From Pseudopedobacter saltans DSM 12145 (GTDB taxonomy: Bacteria > Bacteroidota > Bacteroidia > Sphingobacteriales > Sphingobacteriaceae): DNA of 64,000 nucleotides. The notes under the pieces were generated by a model. It was given only the letters and a program-made list of their open reading frames with translations, was not told the DNA's origin and did no database searches. Where the stretch lies: positions 3,968,001-4,032,000 of the forward strand of contig NC_015177.1 in the NCBI RefSeq assembly GCF_000190735.1. The letters are read 5' to 3'. Position numbers and translations under genes: made by a program. Positions 8,389-34,025 of the stretch are shown piece by piece. Position 1 is the first letter of the stretch. Each line of letters opens with the position of its first letter.

Positions 8389-9879
8389 TTATATTGCTTT
8401 TAATTTTTTGTTTAGTAATTGTAATTCTTTCCATTCCTGATAGATTTCCTCATATTTCGCTGTTTCGTCGGGCTCTATCGTTTTTATTTTCCTGATATTT
8501 TTAAATGCTTCTGATGGTGTTTTGTAATATCCTAATCCAATTCCCGCACCCAAAGCAGCACCCACGCTACCATCGTTTTCATAGAGTTCTACAGGAACTC
8601 CGGTTGCGTTTACATAATCTCTCTGGAAGACTTCACTTAAAAAAAGATTAGAGTTTCCTGCTTTAATGATTTTTGGATCAAGTCCGTTCTCTTTCATAAT
8701 ATCCAGCCCGTACCTGAAAGAAAATGCAATTCCTTCCTGCATCGCTTTCAGAATGTGAGCGGTTCCATGTTGGTTTAAATCAATGTTTTCTATATGTGCG
8801 CCAACTAACTTATTGTTAAGCATACGTTCAGCTCCGTTTCCAAAAGGTAAAACCCGAAGGCCATTACTCCCTGTGGAAATTGATTGCGCCATTTTATTCA
8901 TTTCCGGATAGGAAAGCTCCTTTGTCAATAATTTCTTTGCCCAACTGTATAAAATGCCGGTTCCGTTAATACACAAAAGAACTCCGGTACGTATTTTATC
9001 CTGCAAATAATTTACGTGAGCAAAAGTGTTAATACGCGATTCGTTATCATATACCAATTGATCACTTACTCCATAAATAACACCAGAAGTTCCAGCGGTC
9101 GAAGCTACTTCTCCTGGTTCCAATACATTTAGAGAAAGTGCATTATTTGGTTGGTCTCCAGCTTTATATGTTACTTTTACATCCCCCGAAAGGCCCAGTT
9201 CTTTTGCGATTTCAGAATTGATTTTGCCATGTTCGGAGAAAACAGGTTTTACCTCTGGAAGTAAAGATTTCTCAAATTCAAAATACGTCAGTATTGATTC
9301 AGACAATCGATTGTTTTTGAAATCCCAAAAAACTCCTTCGGATAAAGAACTGATACTTGAGCTTATCTCTCCCGTTAGTTTTGTTGCGATGAAATCACCC
9401 GGAAGCATGATTTTGTATATCTTTTCATAAACCTCGGGTTCATGCTCTTTAACCCATGCCAGTTTTGAAGCGGTAAAATTTCCGGGAGAGTTTAAATGGT
9501 GTTTTAAGCTATAAGACTGTCCAATGCTTTTAAAAGCTTCGTTGCCTATTTCAACTGCCCGGCTATCACACCAGATTATTGAATTCCTAAGAGGTGTATG
9601 TTGTTTATCTACCACAACAAGCCCATGCATCTGATACGCAATGCCAATAGCAGCAATATCAGCGGGGTTATATTTTTTTGTTGCATGCGCTTTTTGTATC
9701 GCAAGCACGGTGTTTTGCCACCATTTTTCGGGACTTTGTTCCGCCCATCCAACCTGCGTAGAGATAATCTCTTCTTCAGTTTCTGGATAATGTACTGAGC
9801 ATAGCGTTTTTTGAGAATTAGCTTCTACAACAGAGACTTTTATAGAAGACGTACCCAAATCTATACCTAAAAAAAGCAT
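8389..9879 (-). CDS. xylB: xylulokinase
   Basis: This is a 496-residue sugar kinase of the FGGY family that phosphorylates D-xylulose to xylulose 5-phosphate, feeding the pentose phosphate pathway. The N-terminal phosphate-binding motif GIDLGTSSIKVSVV, the substrate-region motif GIAYQMHGLV and the second-domain ATP motif TAGTSGVIYG are visible. It is the first gene of the xylB-xylA-symporter operon. Its start at 9879 lies about 28 nt downstream of a palindromic operator and a good Bacteroidota promoter. Confidence 0.95.
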   Translation of the reverse strand: MLFLGIDLGTSSIKVSVVEANSQKTLCSVHYPETEEEIISTQVGWAEQSPEKWWQNTVLAIQKAHATKKYNPADIAAIGIAYQMHGLVVVDKQHTPLRNSIIWCDSRAVEIGNEAFKSIGQSYSLKHHLNSPGNFTASKLAWVKEHEPEVYEKIYKIMLPGDFIATKLTGEISSSISSLSEGVFWDFKNNRLSESILTYFEFEKSLLPEVKPVFSEHGKINSEIAKELGLSGDVKVTYKAGDQPNNALSLNVLEPGEVASTAGTSGVIYGVSDQLVYDNESRINTFAHVNYLQDKIRTGVLLCINGTGILYSWAKKLLTKELSYPEMNKMAQSISTGSNGLRVLPFGNGAERMLNNKLVGAHIENIDLNQHGTAHILKAMQEGIAFSFRYGLDIMKENGLDPKIIKAGNSNLFLSEVFQRDYVNATGVPVELYENDGSVGAALGAGIGLGYYKTPSEAFKNIRKIKTIEPDETAKYEEIYQEWKELQLLNKKLKAI

Positions 9880-9906
9880 ATATATTACTGTTTAGTTATG
9901 CCGATG

Positions 9907-9920
9907 TGCAACCGGTTGCA
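9907..9920. promoter_or_regulatory. LacI-family operator (perfect 14-bp palindrome)
   Basis: TGCAACCGGTTGCA is a perfect palindrome with a central CG, the form typical of LacI-family operators. It abuts the -7 box of the xylB promoter and would cover the transcription start, so binding of the adjacent LacI-type protein should block transcription. It lies 61 bp before that regulator's own start. Confidence 0.8.
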
Positions 9921-9951
9921 TAAAAGTATAATTAAATTTTCAATTGCCAAA
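9921..9951 (-). promoter_or_regulatory. xylB operon promoter
   Basis: On the minus strand TTTG (9948-9951) and TACTTTTA (9921-9928) are separated by 19 nt, matching the Bacteroidota -33/-7 consensus TTTG-N19-TAnnTTTG well. The palindromic operator follows immediately downstream. Confidence 0.7.
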
Positions 9952-9980
9952 GTTTCATGGAAATTTATTTACTTTAAGTA

Positions 9981-11003
9981 TTGAAAAAGAAAACGACTAT
10001 TTACGATATAGCCAAGGAGCTAAACGTAACTGTTTCCACAGTATCGAGGGCATTAAACGGGTTTTCGACCATAAGTGAGGCTACGAGAAAAGCTGTTTTG
10101 GAAACTGCAAAAAAACTGAATTACAGTCCGAACAAGTTGGCTTCTTCTTTAAAATCGGGAAGAACCCAAACGATTGGCGTCATTGTTCCGAGTACACAAG
10201 TACATTTTTTTGCTTCGGTAATTCATAGCATTGAGCAAACTTTAAAGAATGCAGGATACCGGGTCTTACTTTATCAATCCAATGAATCTTTGGAGAATGA
10301 GATTAACGGAGTGAAGACATTATTAGAAGCACAGGTAGACGGAATTATTGCATCTATGTCGTTAGAAACCGAGAACGTTTCACATTTTCAGGATGTAATT
10401 AAGCAACAGAAGCCTTTAATTCTTTTTGACAGAACACATAAAAATATTAATGCTCCTTCGGTTACGATAAATGATACTGATGCAGGGTATATTGCCACTA
10501 AGCATTTAATAGATCAGGGATATCGAAATATCGGGTTTGTTACTACGAATCATCAGATCAAGATATTCAATGAGCGTTTTGAAGGTTATAAAAAAGCTTT
10601 AAGCGACCACAATCTGCCCTATGTAGAAGATCATGTAGTTTTCGGAGGTTTATCTATTAAGGATGGCCGTTTTGGCGCTGGGAAATTATTAAGATCCGCT
10701 AAAGTACCTGATGCTATTATTGCTGGGGATGATTTTACAGCTTTAGGTGTTATAAAGAAACTGAAGGAACAGGATTTGACTCCTCCTAAAATTGGAGTTA
10801 TGGGATTTGCCAACGAAACTTTTTCCGCTTTTATTACACCAAATCTGTCTACTATTGATCAACAAGCTAATAAAATGGGAGCGGAGTGTGCAAAGATGTT
10901 TTTAAAGATGGTAAAAAAGAAAAATCCATACGAAAAAATAGAACATATTATTTTAGAACCTCTTTTGGTGGAAAGGCAATCTACAAATAAAAATAATGCA
11001 TAA
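9981..11003 (+). CDS. LacI-family regulator, probable xylose repressor
   Basis: This 340-residue protein has an N-terminal LacI helix-turn-helix (TIYDIAKELNVTVSTVSRAL, residues 5-24), the hinge-helix region KLASSLKSGRT, and a periplasmic-binding-protein-like sensor domain (about 62-335). It is divergent from xylB across a gap holding one perfect palindromic operator, so it very likely controls the xylose operon and itself. The start is TTG at 9981; an in-frame stop lies two codons upstream and the HTH begins immediately, so no ATG start is available. It may be named XylR by function, but no specific ortholog is claimed. Confidence 0.88.
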   Translation: MKKKTTIYDIAKELNVTVSTVSRALNGFSTISEATRKAVLETAKKLNYSPNKLASSLKSGRTQTIGVIVPSTQVHFFASVIHSIEQTLKNAGYRVLLYQSNESLENEINGVKTLLEAQVDGIIASMSLETENVSHFQDVIKQQKPLILFDRTHKNINAPSVTINDTDAGYIATKHLIDQGYRNIGFVTTNHQIKIFNERFEGYKKALSDHNLPYVEDHVVFGGLSIKDGRFGAGKLLRSAKVPDAIIAGDDFTALGVIKKLKEQDLTPPKIGVMGFANETFSAFITPNLSTIDQQANKMGAECAKMFLKMVKKKNPYEKIEHIILEPLLVERQSTNKNNA

Positions 11004-11048: not shown

Positions 11049-11510
11049 ATGGCGGATAAAATTAAAGTATTATATGTTGATGATGAGGATAATAATCTAA
11101 TCTCATTCAAAGCTAACTTTAGAATGGAGTATAAGGTTTTTACTGCCATAAGCGGAGAGGAAGCACTTAAGATTTTAGAAAAGGAAAATATTGATATTAT
11201 CATCACCGACCAGCGCATGCCTAATATGACAGGTGTTGAGTTCCTGGAAATGGTAATTGAGAAAAATCCAGACCCGATGCGCATTCTTTTAACCGGATAT
11301 GCTGATATGTCCGCAGTTATTGATGCAGTAAACCGGGGAAAAATCTATCATTATCTGGCGAAGCCGTGGGATGAAAAGGAAATGCATGAAACTATCCAAA
11401 ATGCCTACGAAGCTCTTAAAAAGAAACGTGATTTAAACGATCTTAATAAGAAGCTTGAGGCGTCAAACGATCAGCTAGAGTTTATGTTAAGACAAAATTT
11501 ATTGTCTTAA
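11049..11510 (+). CDS. response regulator with lone receiver domain
   Basis: This 153-residue protein is a receiver domain (about 1-125) with the acidic pair D11-D12, phospho-acceptor D54 in IITDQRMPN, T82 and K105 (AKPW), followed by a short C-terminal helix that may form a coiled coil (KKRDLNDLNKKLEAS). There is no output domain, so it probably signals through protein contacts. Its sequence closely resembles the receiver domain of the receiver-kinase at 11912-12997, suggesting duplication. Its last 4 nt overlap the end of the convergent receiver gene at 11507. It starts 45 bp after the LacI-type gene on the same strand. Confidence 0.88.
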   Translation: MADKIKVLYVDDEDNNLISFKANFRMEYKVFTAISGEEALKILEKENIDIIITDQRMPNMTGVEFLEMVIEKNPDPMRILLTGYADMSAVIDAVNRGKIYHYLAKPWDEKEMHETIQNAYEALKKKRDLNDLNKKLEASNDQLEFMLRQNLLS

Positions 11511-11899
11511 AAATCAGCAAGTTCTATAATTTCTTTTATTTCTTCTACAGAATATGGTTTCTGAAGGACTTTTAGTACAGAAGGGTAGGTGCCGATCCTT
11601 TGGATTTCGTTTTTATTCAGCGATGTAGTAATCGGAACAATCCTGTACCATTGCTTTTTCTCTTCATCTAGTTGCTCAAAAGCGTCTAAAAAATCAAATC
11701 CTGTCATAACAGGCATCATAATATCCAATAATATAATGGTGTTTGAATGGGATTCGATATTGTCTATATGCTTCAAACAGGAGTGTGCTTCATAAAAGCT
11801 TTTTACTGATAAACTATTGTCTATTTTATCGATTAACTTTTCGGCGATAAAACAGTCTAGTTCTCTATCGTCTACTACAATGAATGCTAAGGTATCCAT
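11507..11899 (-). CDS. CheY-like receiver, last gene of signalling operon
   Basis: This 130-residue single receiver domain has D10-D11, phospho-acceptor D59 (ILLDIMMPVMTG), T91/T92 and K114 (QKPY). It resembles the Rcp1/RssB-like small receivers that pair with cytoplasmic kinases. It lies 12 nt after the receiver-kinase gene and is the last of five tightly packed minus-strand genes beginning with an acyltransferase-like gene at 18239. It has no DNA-binding output, so the final response of this pathway is not encoded here. It converges on another receiver gene with a 4-nt overlap. Confidence 0.88.
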   Translation of the reverse strand: MDTLAFIVVDDRELDCFIAEKLIDKIDNSLSVKSFYEAHSCLKHIDNIESHSNTIILLDIMMPVMTGFDFLDAFEQLDEEKKQWYRIVPITTSLNKNEIQRIGTYPSVLKVLQKPYSVEEIKEIIELADF

Positions 11900-11911
11900 A
11901 TCGAAACAATT

Positions 11912-12997
11912 TTATTTATGAGGAATTCTAACTATAAACTTCGTGCCCACGTTAAGTTCAGACTCAACTTCTATTTTTCCGTTTAATTTAGTAAGTGCAC
12001 TTTTAAGATTAAATAAGCCAAATCCCGAGCCTGTAGCCTGATAATGTGCTCTGAAAAATAGATTGAAGATCTCTGATTGATATTTACTGTCGATACCGTG
12101 TCCGTTGTCTTCTACTATAATAGTTGCCTCCCCTTTTTTAACGTTAATTTTAAGATTTACGAATTTATTCTCCCGGTCTGGAACCTGATACTTAAATGCA
12201 TTTGACAGTAAGTTATTTATAATAAGTTTTACCGAAAGAATATCGTTCCAAAACGGTTCGTTTTGCTCTAGTTCTGTATTAAATGCGATATTCTCTGTTT
12301 TGGTGTATATACTGAATAAGTCCGACATTTCTTTTACTATATCTTCGAAATTTATATCAGATATGGTTAAAGTGCCTCGTTCCAGACTATAATAATCATG
12401 CATATTTAAGATGAAATTATCCAGTTTTTCAACAGATTTATTCATCATTCTTAAGATTTCCTTGATTTCCTTAATGTCCTGGATATTTAAAGCCAGATTT
12501 ATTCCACCTGCGATACCAACCAAAGGACCACGTAAGTCGTGACTTACGCTATAAGCAAATTTGTCCAATTCCTGATATGCCTTTTCGAGTTCCTTGTTTT
12601 TTATAGCAAGAAACGAGTTGGCAAGGTAGAATTTATTAGCCTCTTCAATAGCCGTTAAAATATCGGCATCTAGCCAGGGCTTTTTTACATATCTGAAGAC
12701 GTGTCCTTTGTTAATGGCGCTGATAACATCTTCTATATCAGAAAATCCGGTTATTAAAATTCTTATAGGAAGTGGATGACTGCTTCGAATTTCCTGAAAA
12801 AACTCTACCCCCGTCATATTGGGCATACGCTGATCGCAAAAGATAACCCGGATATCCGGATTGGAATTGAGGCAATCGAAGGCTTCTGCTGCGGTTTGTA
12901 CACAAAATACTTTGTAGTCAAACCGTAATAATGCCTTGAAACCAATCAGGTTATTAGCTTCATCATCCAAATACAGAACCTTAATTTTGTTTTCCAT
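11912..12997 (-). CDS. receiver-histidine kinase hybrid (REC-HisKA-HATPase)
   Basis: This 361-residue cytoplasmic protein has an N-terminal receiver domain (residues 5-120; phospho-acceptor D55, K106), a coiled linker, a dimerisation/phospho-acceptor domain with H153 in SVSHDLRGPL, and an ATPase domain with N-box NNLLSNAFKY, VEDNGHGID and GSGFGLFNLK. The receiver-first order suggests it is a relay component that receives phosphate and adjusts its own kinase activity. It lies 15 nt after the 7TM sensor kinase gene and 12 nt before a CheY-like gene, so a phosphorelay of sensor, hybrid and receiver is likely. Confidence 0.9.
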   Translation of the reverse strand: MENKIKVLYLDDEANNLIGFKALLRFDYKVFCVQTAAEAFDCLNSNPDIRVIFCDQRMPNMTGVEFFQEIRSSHPLPIRILITGFSDIEDVISAINKGHVFRYVKKPWLDADILTAIEEANKFYLANSFLAIKNKELEKAYQELDKFAYSVSHDLRGPLVGIAGGINLALNIQDIKEIKEILRMMNKSVEKLDNFILNMHDYYSLERGTLTISDINFEDIVKEMSDLFSIYTKTENIAFNTELEQNEPFWNDILSVKLIINNLLSNAFKYQVPDRENKFVNLKINVKKGEATIIVEDNGHGIDSKYQSEIFNLFFRAHYQATGSGFGLFNLKSALTKLNGKIEVESELNVGTKFIVRIPHK

Positions 12998-13012
12998 TCA
13001 GTAGTATTAGTG

Positions 13013-15172
13013 TTATGCTGGATCAGAGCGTTGTTTTAGGGGGAGTGTTATTTTAATTAAGGTTCCCTTACCTATTTCGCTAAAAAGCTCAATATCTCCA
13101 TTATGTTTTTTTACGGTATTGTATGCAATTGACATTCCTAGTCCAGTGCCTTCTCCTACATCCTTGGTTGTGAAAAACGGATCGAACACTTTCGTGATGT
13201 TGTTTTTGTCTATTCCACAACCGTTGTCTCCCATTTCTATGATCACATGGTCGTTCTCTGCTTTTACGGATATTCTTATTATTCCGTTACCATCATTTTT
13301 ATGCGTCTGATTAACAGCGTATATGGCGTTTGAGATGATATTTAAGAAGACCTGATTGAGCTTTCCGGGATAACATTCTATTTGAGGGATGTTATCCTGG
13401 TAATCTTTATCTACTTTAATGTTGCTGGCATTAATAAGGTTATTCATAATTACCAGAGTAGAGTCCATACCTTCTGTAATACTAGCAAGTTTCAAATCAT
13501 CTTCATCTACTCTCGAGAAGATTCGCAAGCCTTTTACTATTTCTGCAGTCCTGCTTGCACCTTCATTTATGCCCTTTAAAAGATGGTCAATTTCGATTTT
13601 AAGATAATCATAATCCAGATCTTCTTTATAATTTTCGATTGTTTTTTTCTTGTCTTCGATATTTTGGTCTGAATAAACCAATTCTTCGTAAGTGTCTATT
13701 GTATCTATAAGCATTCTTACGTCTCTTTGAAGGGGCGAAATATTTGAAGTTACGAAATTTATTGGATTATTAATTTCATGAGCTATGCCTGCCGTTAATT
13801 GACCTAAAGAAGCCATCTTTTCTGCAGCTACAAGTTGGGATTGTGTTTGTTTTAAATCTTCCAGAGTGATGGTAAGTTCCTCGTTAGCTTCTTTTAATTC
13901 TACAGTTCTTTCATTAACCCTGCGTTCCAGGATGGTGTTCTGTTCTTTAATAATTCTCTCATTTTCTTTAGCAATAGAAAGCGCCTGTGCCTGAGATTCT
14001 TCTTTTTCTTTCTTTAAAATATTAATCCTATCTGCCAAGGCTAAAGATAATAGTGCGACTTCCAGAGCAATACCAATCTGCATGGTATAGTTGGTAAATA
14101 AATTATCGGGTACTAATTCAAGATTACGAAGTGAGTACAGGATAAGCCCTAGTAAAAACATTGTCCAGGCAAATAGAAAATATCTTGCCGGGCGGAATCC
14201 CTGTCGGGCAATTTTTACAGCAGCTACGTAAATTAGGATAGCAATAGATATGGCTGCATAGTCTATCATTCGATAGCTAGCAATATCGTAACCAAAAATT
14301 CTTAATAAGATAGCAGTGCCATATAAAAAAAGGATTATGCCAAATAGCTTGTGTAATAAAGGCGTTCTTTGCTTGGTACTCAAAAAGCTGGAAACAAATA
14401 AGACAGCACAAATTCCTGCCAATCCCGGAAAAACAATCAGTGCTTTATTATATAGATGAGGGCTATTATTGAAAATAAATCGATAGGTATATCCTGATAG
14501 AGATGTTTGTGTTAGAGAAATAAATGCGGTGTATAAAACGTAATATAAATAACTCTTATCCTTAGTAGAGATAAAAAGGAATAGATTATAAAAAATCATC
14601 ACAAGGACGATTCCAATCCAAATTCCCCAAATTAAATCATGAACCAGTAATTTTTCGGCAATACCTTTAGGTGTTCCTAATACTAGAGGGAGTATCATCT
14701 GTTCACTGCTATTTACCTTTAAATAGTAGGTTGAAGTGCTGTCCTTTGGTAATTTAATATCAAAAACGAAACTTTGGTGTTGGTATTTTCTCTCTGAAAA
14801 CTTAAGCGTGTCACTTATTGACTGCTTATAATAGCCATTTTCTGTTCTTGTATAAAAATCACATTTATCTAAAGAAGGATAGTCGATAGCCAAAAGCAGA
14901 TTTTCAGATTCGCTGTTGTTTTTTATAGAGAATTTTATCCAAAAATCCGACTTGTTTAGTTTTAAATTAGGTGTTTGGGAAGTCGACTCTTCAAAAATCA
15001 TCGAAGGGGTGTCATTTATCGAAAGACTCTCTGTTTTATCTTCATAAATGTAAATATCCTTTCCAAGGATTATATTTTTACCTTCAAAATTTATAATTTC
15101 TTCAGCAAACGCACCAGAAAATTGAGTGCAAACAAATAAGGCTAAGTATATGAATTTATAGAAGTACTTCAT
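13013..15172 (-). CDS. 7TMR-DISM membrane sensor histidine kinase
   Basis: This 719-residue protein has a signal peptide (1-23), an extracytoplasmic jelly-roll-like sensor domain of the 7TMR-DISMED2 type (about 30-165), seven hydrophobic segments (about 178-380), a long coiled coil (385-450), a phospho-acceptor domain with H465 in GIAHEINNPINF, and an ATPase domain with NIISNAIYAV, GDNGCGID and GEGTGLGMS. DISM sensors are thought to bind small molecules or carbohydrates outside the membrane. Its start overlaps the 3' end of the ThiF-nitroreductase gene by 17 nt, which ties sensing to that enzyme's product or pathway. Confidence 0.92.
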   Translation of the reverse strand: MKYFYKFIYLALFVCTQFSGAFAEEIINFEGKNIILGKDIYIYEDKTESLSINDTPSMIFEESTSQTPNLKLNKSDFWIKFSIKNNSESENLLLAIDYPSLDKCDFYTRTENGYYKQSISDTLKFSERKYQHQSFVFDIKLPKDSTSTYYLKVNSSEQMILPLVLGTPKGIAEKLLVHDLIWGIWIGIVLVMIFYNLFLFISTKDKSYLYYVLYTAFISLTQTSLSGYTYRFIFNNSPHLYNKALIVFPGLAGICAVLFVSSFLSTKQRTPLLHKLFGIILFLYGTAILLRIFGYDIASYRMIDYAAISIAILIYVAAVKIARQGFRPARYFLFAWTMFLLGLILYSLRNLELVPDNLFTNYTMQIGIALEVALLSLALADRINILKKEKEESQAQALSIAKENERIIKEQNTILERRVNERTVELKEANEELTITLEDLKQTQSQLVAAEKMASLGQLTAGIAHEINNPINFVTSNISPLQRDVRMLIDTIDTYEELVYSDQNIEDKKKTIENYKEDLDYDYLKIEIDHLLKGINEGASRTAEIVKGLRIFSRVDEDDLKLASITEGMDSTLVIMNNLINASNIKVDKDYQDNIPQIECYPGKLNQVFLNIISNAIYAVNQTHKNDGNGIIRISVKAENDHVIIEMGDNGCGIDKNNITKVFDPFFTTKDVGEGTGLGMSIAYNTVKKHNGDIELFSEIGKGTLIKITLPLKQRSDPA

Positions 15173-17435
15173 TTAATAGCAATCTAAAGCTTTTTATATT
15201 TGGTTCTTCGGCTACAGATATTTTAACAAGGAAAACCTCTGCATCGTTATCATTAACGCCTGTTAAACTTTTAAAATCTTCTCTTAAAAGTTCCAATTCG
15301 GCGATGTTTTTTTGGTTCAATCCTTCTCCTTTTCCGTGTATCACCCTTGGGAATATATATAGCGGAGAAATTAATGGGTGAACAGCTAGCCCCAGAGTTG
15401 TAGCTTTCAGCCAAAATTGTTCTAAAGAACGGCCGCCCTCAAAAAAGTTTTCTGGAGTGTATTGCGGTAAAGTGATTAATGCAATAGCTGAAGCTGCTTT
15501 TACGCTCTTTTTGGCTATCATTTCTAAGCCTTTTCCACCATCTATATAATTGATTTCCTTTATTGTTTCAGTACTTTTAATAATACCAAGTGCCGCAAGC
15601 TGCGAATTACTCAAACCTAGAGTTTGAACGTCTATTCCATCTTTTCGGGATTCGGCTTCTTCCGGAGTCCATCTCATCTCGTGGTGGACAAAATCATAAT
15701 GCCCTTCTGCGTTAAGTAAGCGAATCCTGTCGCAGGCACCTATAATTCTTGCTAATTCATTGAGCTCTTCTTCTTTTTTAAACCATTTTATTGTTGCAGA
15801 TGGAATCGATTGTGCCGATTCGGTAAGTTGTCGATAGACAGATTCGGGTAATACAGGGGGAATAGAAAGATTTCTGTTTGTACATCTTCTTGAGATAGCG
15901 CTGTATAAGCCATCGATACCCAATTCCTCTTTATTTGATTTGCCGAATTTAATAGCAGCAATTAATCTTCTGTCATTGGCAATTGGTCTAAAATCGTAGC
16001 TGCAGGTCAAGCCATTTTTTAGGGCGCTTATCCGTAAATTTTCATACGCCGCCCCGAAAGTCAATAAAGAAGCGATGTTTTGATAATCTCCGAATGAGAA
16101 AGACCTGTATTCGTCATGAAATAGGAAAAGAACACTATTTTTATATAGCCATTTCCATGGTTGATCATTTCCCGTTGAGGGTGCGAGGCAGGCATCTTCA
16201 ACTAATTTGTTAATCAGTGAATCATCTACTATTAAGTTACTACTCTCAAATTTATAGTTCGAAAGGATATGCAGGGCTTCCGTTTTTGTTAATGGAGTAA
16301 AAGGGTTTTTTCTTACTAAAGGTGTTGCTTCCTTCTCTTTTTTGTTTTTAACCAGCGATTCCAGATCTATATAATATCTTCCTGAGTCTGTAAAGGAGCC
16401 CAATAACATTCTTCTCGAAATGTCTGTGGTAACAGCTCCCCCCAATACTACGGATGACGCGAGCTGAGGCCAGGTGTTAATAGTCTGTTCCACTTCTACC
16501 ATAGAAGCTTTTAGTCTGTTGGAAATAGTTTCTGCACCAACAATCCTCAAAATGAAAGGAACTTTATCTTCATTACTCAGGTTTTTTATGGTAGAAGGAT
16601 TTAACCCTTCGGCTAAACCATGTAAAATTGGTAAAGAGGGATTCAAATCAAAGCGTTCCACGTCCAGCATACCCCGATCATTGGTTTCCATGATAACAGG
16701 TATTCCTAATTCTCGGGCTTTAAATCTGCTCTCTATTTTGATATCCAATCCATCACATACTTCAACTAATAAATCCAGTTTCCCTCCATCCAGAAAGAAA
16801 TCATTAAAGTTTTCGTTTTTAAGACCATCGTTAAAAATTTCAACATTTAAAAAAGGATCAATTTCGGCTATTTCTCTGGCAGCAATAATTGTTTTATTCA
16901 GGCCAAGGTTATGAACCCCGGTTCTTATACGGTTTAGATTGGATAATTCTGCTGTGTCAAAATCCGCGAGTTTTAAACTTCCGCAAATACGTTCCATAGC
17001 AATGGTCAACGCAATAGATTGTCCAACAGAAAGCCCTATGATACCGATTTTCTTTTTTTCTAAGATATCCTGTTCTTCGGAAGTAATTTTATATTTATTC
17101 CGGTTTGTTCTAACAGTAACGAATTCTTCCTTGTCGAGAAGATGAACCAGATAATTGTTCCAGGGATAGAATACCCAAACTCCATATTTTTCTATAGGGT
17201 TTCCATTTAGATGCTTTGCTATTAGTTCAGAATAATCCTGCTCGGTTAGTTTTATAGAAGGGTTTTGAATTTTGATCAGTTCTTTCAACTGGCTATAAAT
17301 TTCGTCCCTTACAAATGACACAGGTTTATCTCGTAGCAAATTCTGCAGCTCTTTTTCATCCGAAGTATTATTTGGATAATAAAAACGGGGTTTGTATATA
17401 TTGTCCAAAGAGTTTTCTTTGTTTAAGCTTTTCAT
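15156..17435 (-). CDS. ThiF/E1-like adenylyltransferase fused to nitroreductase-like domain (Rv1355c type)
   Basis: This 759-residue two-domain protein has an E1/ThiF Rossmann domain in its first half (GIIGLSVGQSIA near residue 130; ADFDTAELSNLNR, the E1 ATP/Mg signature) and a flavin nitroreductase-like domain in its second half (APSTGNDQPWKW near residue 420). ThiF-type domains adenylate C-termini of small proteins or peptides; nitroreductase folds oxidise or reduce small molecules, and in azole-forming pathways they dehydrogenate heterocycles. The architecture recalls the Rv1355c family, whose role is unknown. The usual CxxC zinc pairs of E1 enzymes are not obvious. It is second in an operon after an acyltransferase-like gene (12-nt gap). 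Confidence 0.82.
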   Translation of the reverse strand: MKSLNKENSLDNIYKPRFYYPNNTSDEKELQNLLRDKPVSFVRDEIYSQLKELIKIQNPSIKLTEQDYSELIAKHLNGNPIEKYGVWVFYPWNNYLVHLLDKEEFVTVRTNRNKYKITSEEQDILEKKKIGIIGLSVGQSIALTIAMERICGSLKLADFDTAELSNLNRIRTGVHNLGLNKTIIAAREIAEIDPFLNVEIFNDGLKNENFNDFFLDGGKLDLLVEVCDGLDIKIESRFKARELGIPVIMETNDRGMLDVERFDLNPSLPILHGLAEGLNPSTIKNLSNEDKVPFILRIVGAETISNRLKASMVEVEQTINTWPQLASSVVLGGAVTTDISRRMLLGSFTDSGRYYIDLESLVKNKKEKEATPLVRKNPFTPLTKTEALHILSNYKFESSNLIVDDSLINKLVEDACLAPSTGNDQPWKWLYKNSVLFLFHDEYRSFSFGDYQNIASLLTFGAAYENLRISALKNGLTCSYDFRPIANDRRLIAAIKFGKSNKEELGIDGLYSAISRRCTNRNLSIPPVLPESVYRQLTESAQSIPSATIKWFKKEEELNELARIIGACDRIRLLNAEGHYDFVHHEMRWTPEEAESRKDGIDVQTLGLSNSQLAALGIIKSTETIKEINYIDGGKGLEMIAKKSVKAASAIALITLPQYTPENFFEGGRSLEQFWLKATTLGLAVHPLISPLYIFPRVIHGKGEGLNQKNIAELELLREDFKSLTGVNDNDAEVFLVKISVAEEPNIKSFRLLLNEVLL

Positions 17436-17447
17436 ATATGTTTTTTA

Positions 17448-18239
17448 TCAAAGTTTAGCTATGCTCTCCTGATAGTTTATTTTTGCATTTGATATCGTTT
17501 TCGCCAAATCCCAGTTCTCCAAATTGGGGATCCTGATCTTATAATCAATTTCGATTTCTTTATTTCTTAGAACTTCCATTCTTAGAATATCCAGATTCTC
17601 TCTGATTTTTAGTATAGCTTCCTTGTCTTCAGAATGAGCTTTGCTTAGTGTGGGTACATCTTTCAGTACCATTGTTGTTGCTATAAGGTCTAATTTTGGA
17701 TAATAAAAAGTTCCTTGATTACCCACATTTGGTTCAAGTTCCATACCTACCGCTTCTCCGGGCTTTATGGTATAAGGAGCACATAAAGCAAATAAAGATT
17801 GTATGCCTATTTGGTGAGAAATAGCGGCGGCAGTCCTTATTAAAAAGATACTACCTATACCGTGACCGGCTATTTCCCGAGAATTCCATAATCCACAGAG
17901 TTCACCAGTTCCATGTTGAGCATATTGCCAGATCAGGCCAAATATTTTAGGATCTAAAGCACAGGTCGCTTCTTCTATGGGTAAAGGCTGGTTACCGCCG
18001 GCAACGTGAACGCGGGCGCCACCGTAAACTCTTTCTCCATCCATTGATTCGACAACCATCACAAACGCGGCCGGATTATACATCCAGTCATGTTTAGAGG
18101 AAGTTACCTTTGTAATACCTATATTGCTGAGTACCTGAGTATGTCCTTCAATGAATTTCTCACATGTGTCAGGGTCGTCTATAGCTCTGAAAGCTCTAAG
18201 TCTTACAGCAGGTCTATCTTTATTTAAGCTAGATTCCAT
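17448..18239 (-). CDS. GNAT/autoinducer-synthase-like acyltransferase
   Basis: This protein of about 263 residues probably belongs to the GNAT-like N-acyltransferase superfamily that includes acyl-homoserine-lactone synthases and FeeM-type N-acyl amino acid synthases. Support: a central mixed region with VMVVESMDGERVYGGARVH (strand plus arginine, as in such synthases) and an acyl-CoA/ACP-binding-like loop EIAGHGIGSIFLIRTAAA. The family match is by pattern only. It is the first gene of the five-gene signalling operon. An upstream in-frame TTG at 18281 would add 14 residues; ATG at 18239 is preferred because Bacteroidota rarely use TTG and the conserved part begins after it. Confidence 0.6.
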   Translation of the reverse strand: MESSLNKDRPAVRLRAFRAIDDPDTCEKFIEGHTQVLSNIGITKVTSSKHDWMYNPAAFVMVVESMDGERVYGGARVHVAGGNQPLPIEEATCALDPKIFGLIWQYAQHGTGELCGLWNSREIAGHGIGSIFLIRTAAAISHQIGIQSLFALCAPYTIKPGEAVGMELEPNVGNQGTFYYPKLDLIATTMVLKDVPTLSKAHSEDKEAILKIRENLDILRMEVLRNKEIEIDYKIRIPNLENWDLAKTISNAKINYQESIAKL

Positions 18240-18337
18240 TGCGATTAGGTGTGTTGTCGTTTTAGAGGATGAATATAGCAAAATTGGCTAAGTTGATTAA
18301 TATGTTTTAAAAATAACTTTTTCCATCCTGTACTATC

Positions 18338-18361
18338 CCGGCATCGATGCCGGCAACGATT
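18338..18361. promoter_or_regulatory. repeated regulatory motif, copy 1, before block 1 SusC
   Basis: CCGGCATCGATGCCGG (18338-18353) is a perfect 16-bp palindrome. Read on the minus strand, 18342-18361 is ATCGTTGCCGGC-type sequence followed by ATCGATG, the same element found at 34006 and 38465. It lies 165 bp before SusC and about 100 bp before the divergent acyltransferase gene. A TATCTTTC box at 18381 could be the -7 element for SusC. Confidence 0.65.
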
Positions 18362-34005: not shown

Positions 34006-34025
34006 AATCGTTACCGGTATCGTTG
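34006..34025. promoter_or_regulatory. repeated regulatory motif, copy 2, before PL9
   Basis: The sequence reads as two direct 12-bp units, ATCGTTACCGGT (34007-34018) and ATCGTTGCCGGG (34019-34030), preceded by GCA. It matches the elements at 18342 (minus strand) and 38465 (plus strand). It is about 100 bp upstream of the PL9 gene start (33908). Confidence 0.65.

Follow-up and report, generated by a model that had tools for sequence, protein, structure and literature searches.

A candidate self-sensing signal module of Bacteroidota that pairs a predicted acyl-oxazolone pathway with a 7TM-DISM sensor kinase

Introduction

What does a sensor kinase detect when its gene shares an operon with genes of a predicted acyl-oxazolone pathway? 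The question is raised by a locus of Pseudopedobacter saltans DSM 12145 (Bacteroidota; assembly GCF_000190735.1), whose genome is a single contig of 4.64 Mb; the stretch analysed here, called the window, comprises 64,000 nucleotides (nt) of contig NC_015177.1, from position 3,968,001 to 4,032,000. Five minus-strand genes encode a predicted N-acyl amino acid synthase (NAT), a fusion of a ThiF cyclase with a flavin-dependent oxidase, a 7TMR-DISM sensor histidine kinase, a protein that joins a receiver to HisKA and HATPase domains (the receiver-kinase), and a CheY-like receiver. An initial annotation, made from the sequence alone, proposed that the first two genes make a diffusible molecule sensed by the kinase. 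Our comparisons lend support to the biosynthetic pair, through TrzS family membership and a GNAT fold, and to sensing of the product, through co-variation of the sensor half of the kinase with a tailoring enzyme. 7TM-DISM kinases are mostly orphans. We put the probability that this Bacteroidota locus is a self-sensing signal module, in which the kinase senses the product of the enzymes, at roughly 60%.

The synthase gene and the kinase gene occur together

Of 60 related genomes, with that of P. saltans counted among them, 25 encode NAT, in one copy each, and an orthologue of the 7TM-DISM kinase is present in exactly those 25 genomes (480 to 1,587 bits; the copy in G013 is split) when up to 18 candidates per genome are scored. 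Among these candidates, no kinase orthologue was found in the other 35 genomes, where the next best match (278 bits) covers the kinase part only. ThiF relatives at E ≤ 1e-30 occur in 19 of the 25 genomes with NAT and in none of the 35 others. In a sample of 395 genomes of the phylum, a NAT profile matched 13, and both searches together gave 35 distinct NAT-positive genomes, all of which (35/35) have a DISM kinase gene within 8 kb. Since the P. saltans genome has seven DISM genes above the cut-off, we estimate that a random 12-kb neighbourhood would contain one about 2% of the time. NAT and this kinase family therefore form a very tight partnership, which is well supported and bears out the conserved co-occurrence outside this strain that the initial annotation had suggested looking for.

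The other components follow the pair less strictly. Relatives of the receiver-kinase are present in 30 of the 35 NAT-positive genomes, as are relatives of a sixth component, a receiver-only protein encoded convergently with the operon in the window; the CheY-like receiver has relatives in 18 at the threshold used. Two of the five genomes lacking a receiver-kinase relative (L132 and L142) have a receiver-PAS-HisKA_3 kinase instead. Among 75 loci in which 6.5 kb or more flank NAT on both sides, mostly selected through ThiF and not fully dereplicated (14 further NAT loci lay too near a contig end), the kinase is found in 75, the receiver-kinase in 70, the convergent-type receiver in 71 and the CheY-like receiver in 58. 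The module is carried by members of Pedobacter, Mucilaginibacter, Daejeonella, Dyadobacter and Arachidicoccus, among others, and its carriers span three Bacteroidota orders (order looked up for three of these genera); Pedobacter glucosidilyticus DSM 23534 and Dyadobacter fermentans are two cultivable soil carriers. Two gene orders occur, NAT-ThiF-kinase and ThiF-NAT-kinase, and the convergent-type receiver gene can stand at either end of the locus; elsewhere than in the window it is also found divergent, at the opposite end. The block stays together, whereas what lies on either side of it is for the most part common to members of one genus only. When flanking open reading frames (ORFs) of at least 90 aa were grouped for 76 of 78 loci into families present in at least 4 loci, the seven largest of the best 15 families were confined to Dyadobacter loci (16 to 24 loci) and three smaller ones spanned genera (8, 6 and 6 loci); neither an exporter nor an output regulator can be proposed from these 15 families. 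Two loci have the kinase split into two ORFs with the rest of the module present (L121 6002-8160 and L041 12422-14547).

A variable tailoring enzyme co-varies with the sensor half

Every one of the 35 NAT-positive genomes carries one of four tailoring genes. ThiF is present in 27, with a nitroreductase/oxidase part in 13 and without it in 14 (one, G162, is cut by the contig end). ThiF is replaced by a soluble S-adenosylmethionine-dependent methyltransferase, encoded between NAT and kinase, in 6 genomes, and by a membrane protein of the isoprenylcysteine carboxyl methyltransferase (ICMT) family in 2 (PF04140, E 3.5e-18 and 1.5e-19); the PDB chains closest to the ICMT-family protein at L162 are isoprenylcysteine carboxyl methyltransferases. 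Enzymes of the ICMT family transfer a methyl group to the carboxylate of an amino acid that bears a lipid, and ThiF enzymes activate carboxylates. Most simply, what they would have in common is that the carboxylate in an N-acyl amino acid is masked, which gives a neutral amphipathic molecule. That the soluble methyltransferase has the same carboxylate as its acceptor is a guess. One locus (L126 8515-9642) has a ThiF without oxidase but a sensor of the ThiF-oxidase type, as if the oxidase had been lost recently.

The sensor half of the kinase (DISMED2 plus 7TM) follows the type of tailoring enzyme more closely than the kinase half and NAT do. We typed 77 dereplicated systems as ThiF-oxidase (56, one of them in two ORFs), ThiF (15) or methyltransferase (6). 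Incomplete contigs, split kinases and misassigned ORFs were left out of the trees (L039, L041, L055, L060, L071, L077, L121 and L133), as were duplicates with kinases identical over most of their length or over the last 200 residues (L047, L048, L119, L120 and L134); the unrelated ThiF proteins L079 and L080 were also excluded. The nearest neighbour is of the same type for 72 of the 77 systems in the 7TM segment, 65 in DISMED2, 61 in NAT and 58 in the kinase part. On maximum-likelihood trees the fewest type changes are 6 for 7TM and 6 for DISMED2, compared with 14 for the kinase part and 16 for NAT; 60 equal-length bootstraps gave 5-10, 5-11, 13-17 and 13-18, respectively, and shuffled labels about 20. 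When the two ICMT-type systems are added, whose sensors are not clear mutual nearest relatives in all segments, the numbers for 7TM, DISMED2, kinase and NAT become 6, 8, 15 and 17 for the 79 systems, and 8, 7, 15 and 16 for 51 systems after removal of near-duplicates. Where kinase and tailoring gene are neighbours (31 systems), they are 5, 5, 12 and 12 (shuffled, about 13.5).

The extent of the co-varying segment was mapped in these 31 systems with 70-residue sliding windows, for pairs at a kinase identity of 0.55-0.75 (128 same-type and 182 different-type pairs). Same-type identity exceeds different-type identity by 0.12-0.18 over residues 30-379, by 0.10 at 345-414 and by 0.03 at 380-449, with a difference of about 0 beyond; along NAT the difference is -0.02 to -0.03, including the end that adjoins the tailoring gene. 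An abrupt drop near the end of the seventh transmembrane helix (TM7) is what a functional cassette would give, rather than gradual hitch-hiking. Partial correlations agree for this gene order: given the kinase, the sensor correlates with ThiF at 0.75 and with NAT at -0.10 (22 systems per order with related rows, so that permutation counts serve as a guide only).

Could sensor and tailoring gene co-vary solely because adjacent DNA is exchanged in blocks, with no functional match between them? The effect appears only in the order where the two adjoin, and a set of results weighs here against a kinase that senses the product. In the ThiF-NAT-kinase order (20 dereplicated systems, two types only), type changes number 4, 4, 5 and 4 (shuffled, 6.3-6.7), so that the sensor tracks type no better than kinase or NAT and linkage contributes. 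Given the kinase, the sensor in this order correlates most with its neighbour NAT (0.54) and less with ThiF (0.37), and the kinase half correlates with ThiF given NAT in both orders (0.68 and 0.57), from which we infer a contribution of linkage and of shared descent. Sensor identity shows no same-type excess for pairs at a kinase identity of 0.55-0.60 (0.326 same-type versus 0.325 different-type) or below 0.45 (0.304 versus 0.309). Linkage alone, however, predicts a decay with distance on both sides of the tailoring gene, whereas the signal is level across some 350 sensor residues, drops at the end of TM7 over one or two 35-residue steps and is absent from the adjoining end of NAT. Moreover, the ThiF-sensor correlation of 0.37 in the other order is not reached in any of 499 permutations, whose rows are not independent. 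A gradual-linkage account does not suit the sharp boundary, but the gene-order test and the partial correlations still give linkage a part; block exchange as the sole cause seems to us very improbable. The alignments indicate that the sensor half goes with the adjacent biosynthetic gene, and that linkage matters.

The predicted biosynthetic pair

The second gene of the operon encodes a 759-aa protein with a full-length match to the NCBIfam family NF005901, "Rv1355c family" (818.3 bits against a cut-off of 476). Pfam recognises a ThiF domain (E 4.6e-13), while the nitroreductase match is weak (E 5e-4, 20.7 bits, under the cut-off of 23.5); the whole protein nevertheless falls in the Rv1355c/TrzS family, so that the fusion described in the initial annotation stands. 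The protein was aligned with two actinobacterial proteins annotated as Rv1355c family, to which it is 32-33% identical, and with two from Bacteroidota. Asp228 is invariant in the five and, mapped through a Mycolicibacterium relative, is the counterpart of the adenylation residue Asp217 of TrzS. By offset, TrzS Arg540 falls in a D[R/K]IR motif of which the second arginine (R572) is invariant and the first is not, so that it is uncertain which arginine is meant; the position near TrzS Gln651 is a histidine here and in Rhodococcus, again by offset. The published enzymology identifies Rv1355c with TrzS, which together with TrzA (Rv1356c) makes N-acyl tryptazolones: TrzA acylates tryptophan, and TrzS then cyclises with ATP and desaturates with O2 (PMC12856293). 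Tyrazolones and phenazolones are made by OxzAB and TyzACB (PMC12856293, PMC10404671). Sequence comparison gives good support to the view that the window carries a biosynthetic pathway of the Rv1355c family, the predicted product being an N-acyl oxazolone, a member of a known compound class.

NAT itself has no match in Pfam (up to E 1) or NCBIfam (up to E 0.1), and the matches of 25 aligned relatives in these databases are scattered and chance-like, one being Acetyltransf_1 at E 0.1. PDB sequence searches with NAT alone and with a 26-member profile returned no credible relative, and a plasmid search with NAT no match. The 26-member alignment has E113, C115, G116, N119 and S120 invariant. An AlphaFold2 model (mean predicted local distance difference test score, pLDDT, 91.8) has FeeM (2g0b, E 2.5e-8) and BjaI (5w8e, E 5.8e-8) as its best Foldseek matches in the PDB; VIA gave Z scores of 16.1 for BjaI, 15.7 for FeeM and 15.4 for the plain GNAT 1xeb, in a list of 50 entries that re-scores Foldseek's own matches only. 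The model thus supports a GNAT-like N-acyl synthase fold, as had been supposed for the first gene, and the proposed comparison with LuxI, FeeM and GNAT structures turned up an acyltransferase fold with FeeM and BjaI on top.

Three plasmid observations concern the same chemistry. GGDEF, hypothetical-protein and TrzS-family genes lie side by side on a Rhodococcus plasmid (L143 3883-8031), which fits the remark in the published account that c-di-GMP genes adjoin trzAS (PMC12856293); GGDEF is perhaps a second signalling partner for this chemistry. The hypothetical protein there, encoded on the opposite strand and matching no family, has no sequence relation to NAT (hhalign probability 0.7%) and is a TrzA counterpart by position only. 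On a Streptomyces plasmid (L145 5191-8105), a ThiF 45% identical to the ThiF domain of the window is followed by a gene annotated as beta-ketoacyl-ACP synthase 3, a possible different acylating partner.

The kinase and the phosphorelay

The 719-aa kinase matches 7TMR-DISM_7TM (E 8e-54), DISMED2 (E 7e-33) and HATPase (E 1e-23) in Pfam, and all 79 aligned kinases keep its HisKA histidine, His465. A motif look-up found the expected receiver, HisKA and ATP-binding motifs, as applicable, in the receiver-kinase and in both receiver-only proteins. The model of the sensor half (mean pLDDT 88.4) consists of a RetS-type beta-sandwich and, after it, a bundle of helices, the last of which begins near residue 363 and extends past the membrane. 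Its best PDB match is the periplasmic domain of RetS (3jyb, Foldseek E 2e-6); a match to human WLS (Foldseek E 3.7e-4, TM 0.29, root-mean-square deviation 17.8) was too weak and remained unused.

Layout of the locus

The coordinates of the components are collected in Table 1.

Table 1. Components of the locus, in coordinates of the window.
Feature	Position	Strand	Basis and remarks
N-acyl amino acid synthase NAT, predicted; GNAT fold, FeeM/LuxI-like	17448..18239	-	263 aa from ATG at 18239; no Pfam/NCBIfam family
ThiF cyclase and flavin-dependent oxidase fusion, TrzS/Rv1355c family; predicted acyl-oxazolone synthase	15156..17435	-	759 aa; NF005901 match
7TMR-DISM sensor histidine kinase, HisKA His465	13013..15172	-	719 aa; Pfam domains
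Sensor half of the kinase, residues ~30-382, DISMED2 and 7TM; part varying with tailoring-enzyme type	14027..15085	-	trees, sliding windows, predicted structure
PhcR-like receiver, HisKA and HATPase protein (receiver-kinase)	11912..12997	-	361 aa; no DNA-binding domain found (Pfam)
CheY-like receiver-only protein	11507..11899	-	130 aa; Pfam
Sixth component, receiver-only protein, convergent with the operon here	11049..11510	+	153 aa; Pfam; accompanies the set in other genomes

Gaps of 12, -17, 15 and 12 nt separate the five minus-strand genes in the ORF list, in exact agreement with the initial annotation, which was right about these five but overlooked the convergent receiver gene that meets the last operon gene tail to tail. 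The mechanical ORF of NAT begins with TTG at 18281, ahead of the ATG. Pfam finds no DNA-binding domain in any of the six proteins.

Upstream of the operon and of a divergent SusC-like gene lies a perfect 16-bp palindrome, CCGGCATCGATGCCGG, at 18338-18353. Similar sites with 2 and 3 mismatches lie at 34014 and 63241, making three in total against a chance mean of 0.04; the palindrome is perhaps a LacI-type operator. Sugar genes stand beside the module, namely an FGGY kinase and a LacI regulator at 8389-11003 in the window and likewise in Pedobacter puniceum (L120 14631-17235), and an L-arabinose isomerase and a class II aldolase nearby in Dyadobacter (L042 17511-19712). A gene for a receiver-PglZ protein is close to the module at L137 3535-5097; PorX, which regulates type IX secretion, has the same two domains. 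Similar ORFs with a receiver match lie close to the module in L138, L140 and L141, from genomes of the same family.

Alternative explanations

Further points count on the other side of the balance from self-sensing, and two explanations draw on them. The first is that the kinase responds to an unrelated cue such as a sugar, and that the enzymes are either its output or simply encoded nearby. Besides its likeness to the RetS domain, the DISMED2 half has a weak one to carbohydrate-binding modules, which would suit a sugar ligand too, and sugar genes adjoin the locus in the window and in P. puniceum and are near it in Dyadobacter. Yet the flanks change between genera while the block holds together, the kinase is near NAT in each NAT-positive genome, and sensor type goes with enzyme type across genera, so that we consider this explanation quite improbable.

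The second makes the acyl-oxazolone an antibiotic, an envelope lipid or a stress metabolite whose production the kinase would regulate via envelope or product effects, as feedback rather than cell-cell communication. The envelope is monitored by many sensor kinases. According to the tryptazolone study, secreted N-acyl tyrosine derivatives are antimicrobial, and tryptazolones are enriched in cells over supernatant in actinobacteria, which argues against free diffusion (PMC12856293). This would not lead one to expect the sensor half to track the tailoring enzyme up to an abrupt limit near TM7; in addition, no single additional gene family among the best 15 of the flank survey widely accompanies the locus, and the kinase orthologue was not found without NAT among the candidates from the 60 genomes. 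We regard it as unlikely, though less so than a sugar cue.

No output regulator is genetically linked to the locus, and a full-length ThiF-nitroreductase relative in an unclassified bacterium (SI072_bin15; L071 9965-12229) has no acyltransferase, kinase or receiver match in its fetched flanks. Plain GNATs such as 1xeb tie with the FeeM/LuxI type on Z, so that the fold alone does not single out LuxI or FeeM; this tie, together with the correlation between kinase half and ThiF, lowers our confidence in a self-sensing module slightly.

Discussion

The proposed mechanism has five steps. NAT would join an acyl group to an amino acid, as its fold and context suggest, and the ThiF-oxidase, like its family member TrzS, would activate the carboxylate with ATP, close the oxazolone ring and desaturate. 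The carboxylate would thereby be masked, giving a neutral amphipathic molecule; relatives may reach a similar result by methyl-esterification, as the ICMT family suggests and as we guess for the soluble methyltransferase. To judge from the co-variation of sensor and tailoring enzyme, the DISM-7TM half may recognise the head group, from outside or within the membrane. Phosphate may then reach the PhcR-like protein, at its receiver, and also the receiver-only proteins, which by their anatomy and by analogy with Phc would act through protein contact with unlinked targets.

A bolder version, for which the odds seem to us slightly short of even, is a new quorum-sensing class of Bacteroidota. A constant N-acyl amino acid synthase, making a charged precursor, would be combined with an exchangeable carboxylate-masking enzyme that sets a "dialect" (oxazolone, dehydro-oxazolone or methyl ester), and the sensor half would be exchanged along with it, forming a pherotype cassette between a conserved synthase and a conserved kinase and phosphorelay. 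If self-sensing holds, a recently discovered class of bacterial lipids would gain a job and Bacteroidota an acyl-amino-acid signalling system; 7TM-DISM kinases would gain candidate ligands, and the naturally exchanged sensor/enzyme cassette could be used for mapping specificity. Related operons may be mentioned in the 2009 survey that Burroughs, Iyer and Aravind made of E1-like proteins. The open-licence literature, which covers no preprints and few subscription journals, contains in its available text no description that connects a sensor kinase with oxazolone synthases; the c-di-GMP remark in PMC12856293 comes closest. The discussion of that paper names the physiological role of acyl-oxazolones a major unresolved question, one that becomes directly testable where cultivable soil bacteria encode a dedicated candidate sensor next to the synthase.

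Several known systems share features with the locus. The pherotype loci agr and comQXP likewise combine a conserved kinase half with a sensor half that varies jointly with the signal-making gene, but those signals are peptides and the one predicted here is an acylated amino acid derivative. LuxI-type synthases and FeeM resemble NAT in predicted fold and in acyl transfer to an amino compound, and the end product of LuxI, an acyl-homoserine lactone, is likewise neutral, as is the methyl ester made by PhcB. NAT differs in matching neither family in Pfam or NCBIfam, and the presumed receptor is a membrane kinase rather than a LuxR-type regulator. With TrzAS, OxzAB and TyzACB, the locus shares an acyltransferase-fold gene next to an Rv1355c-family ThiF cyclase-flavin oxidase fusion with its adenylation aspartate kept. 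Here, however, the pair is embedded in a two-component operon, and in many relatives either the oxidase is missing or there is a methyltransferase instead; the available text on TrzAS mentions the neighbouring c-di-GMP genes and no kinase (PMC12856293).

The closest parallel in form is the phcBSRQ locus of Ralstonia. It encodes PhcB, the kinase PhcS, PhcR (a receiver joined to a histidine kinase, with no DNA-binding domain) and the receiver-only PhcQ (PMC8578825, PMC6989110), and the Phc proteins act on the LysR-type regulator PhcA (PMC8578825, PMC6989110, PMC11960443). Both loci thus combine a signal enzyme, a sensor kinase, a receiver-kinase protein that lacks a DNA-binding domain and a receiver-only protein, and 8 of the 35 relatives even have a methyltransferase as tailoring enzyme. 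PhcB, however, makes a hydroxy-fatty-acid methyl ester, and its four-gene operon has no acyltransferase, whereas the constant enzyme here is a predicted N-acyl amino acid synthase, accompanied in the window by a ThiF-oxidase and not by a methyltransferase synthase. The sensor class probably differs as well. Phosphorylation of PhcS at His230 (PMC11960443) implies an input half shorter than the one preceding His465. The view of the initial annotation that no described quorum system matches therefore has to be given up; as we read the comparison, the form of the architecture is already known from Phc and the enzymology has been published for OxzAB, TyzACB and TrzAS, while the synthase and the predicted signal set the locus apart from Phc.

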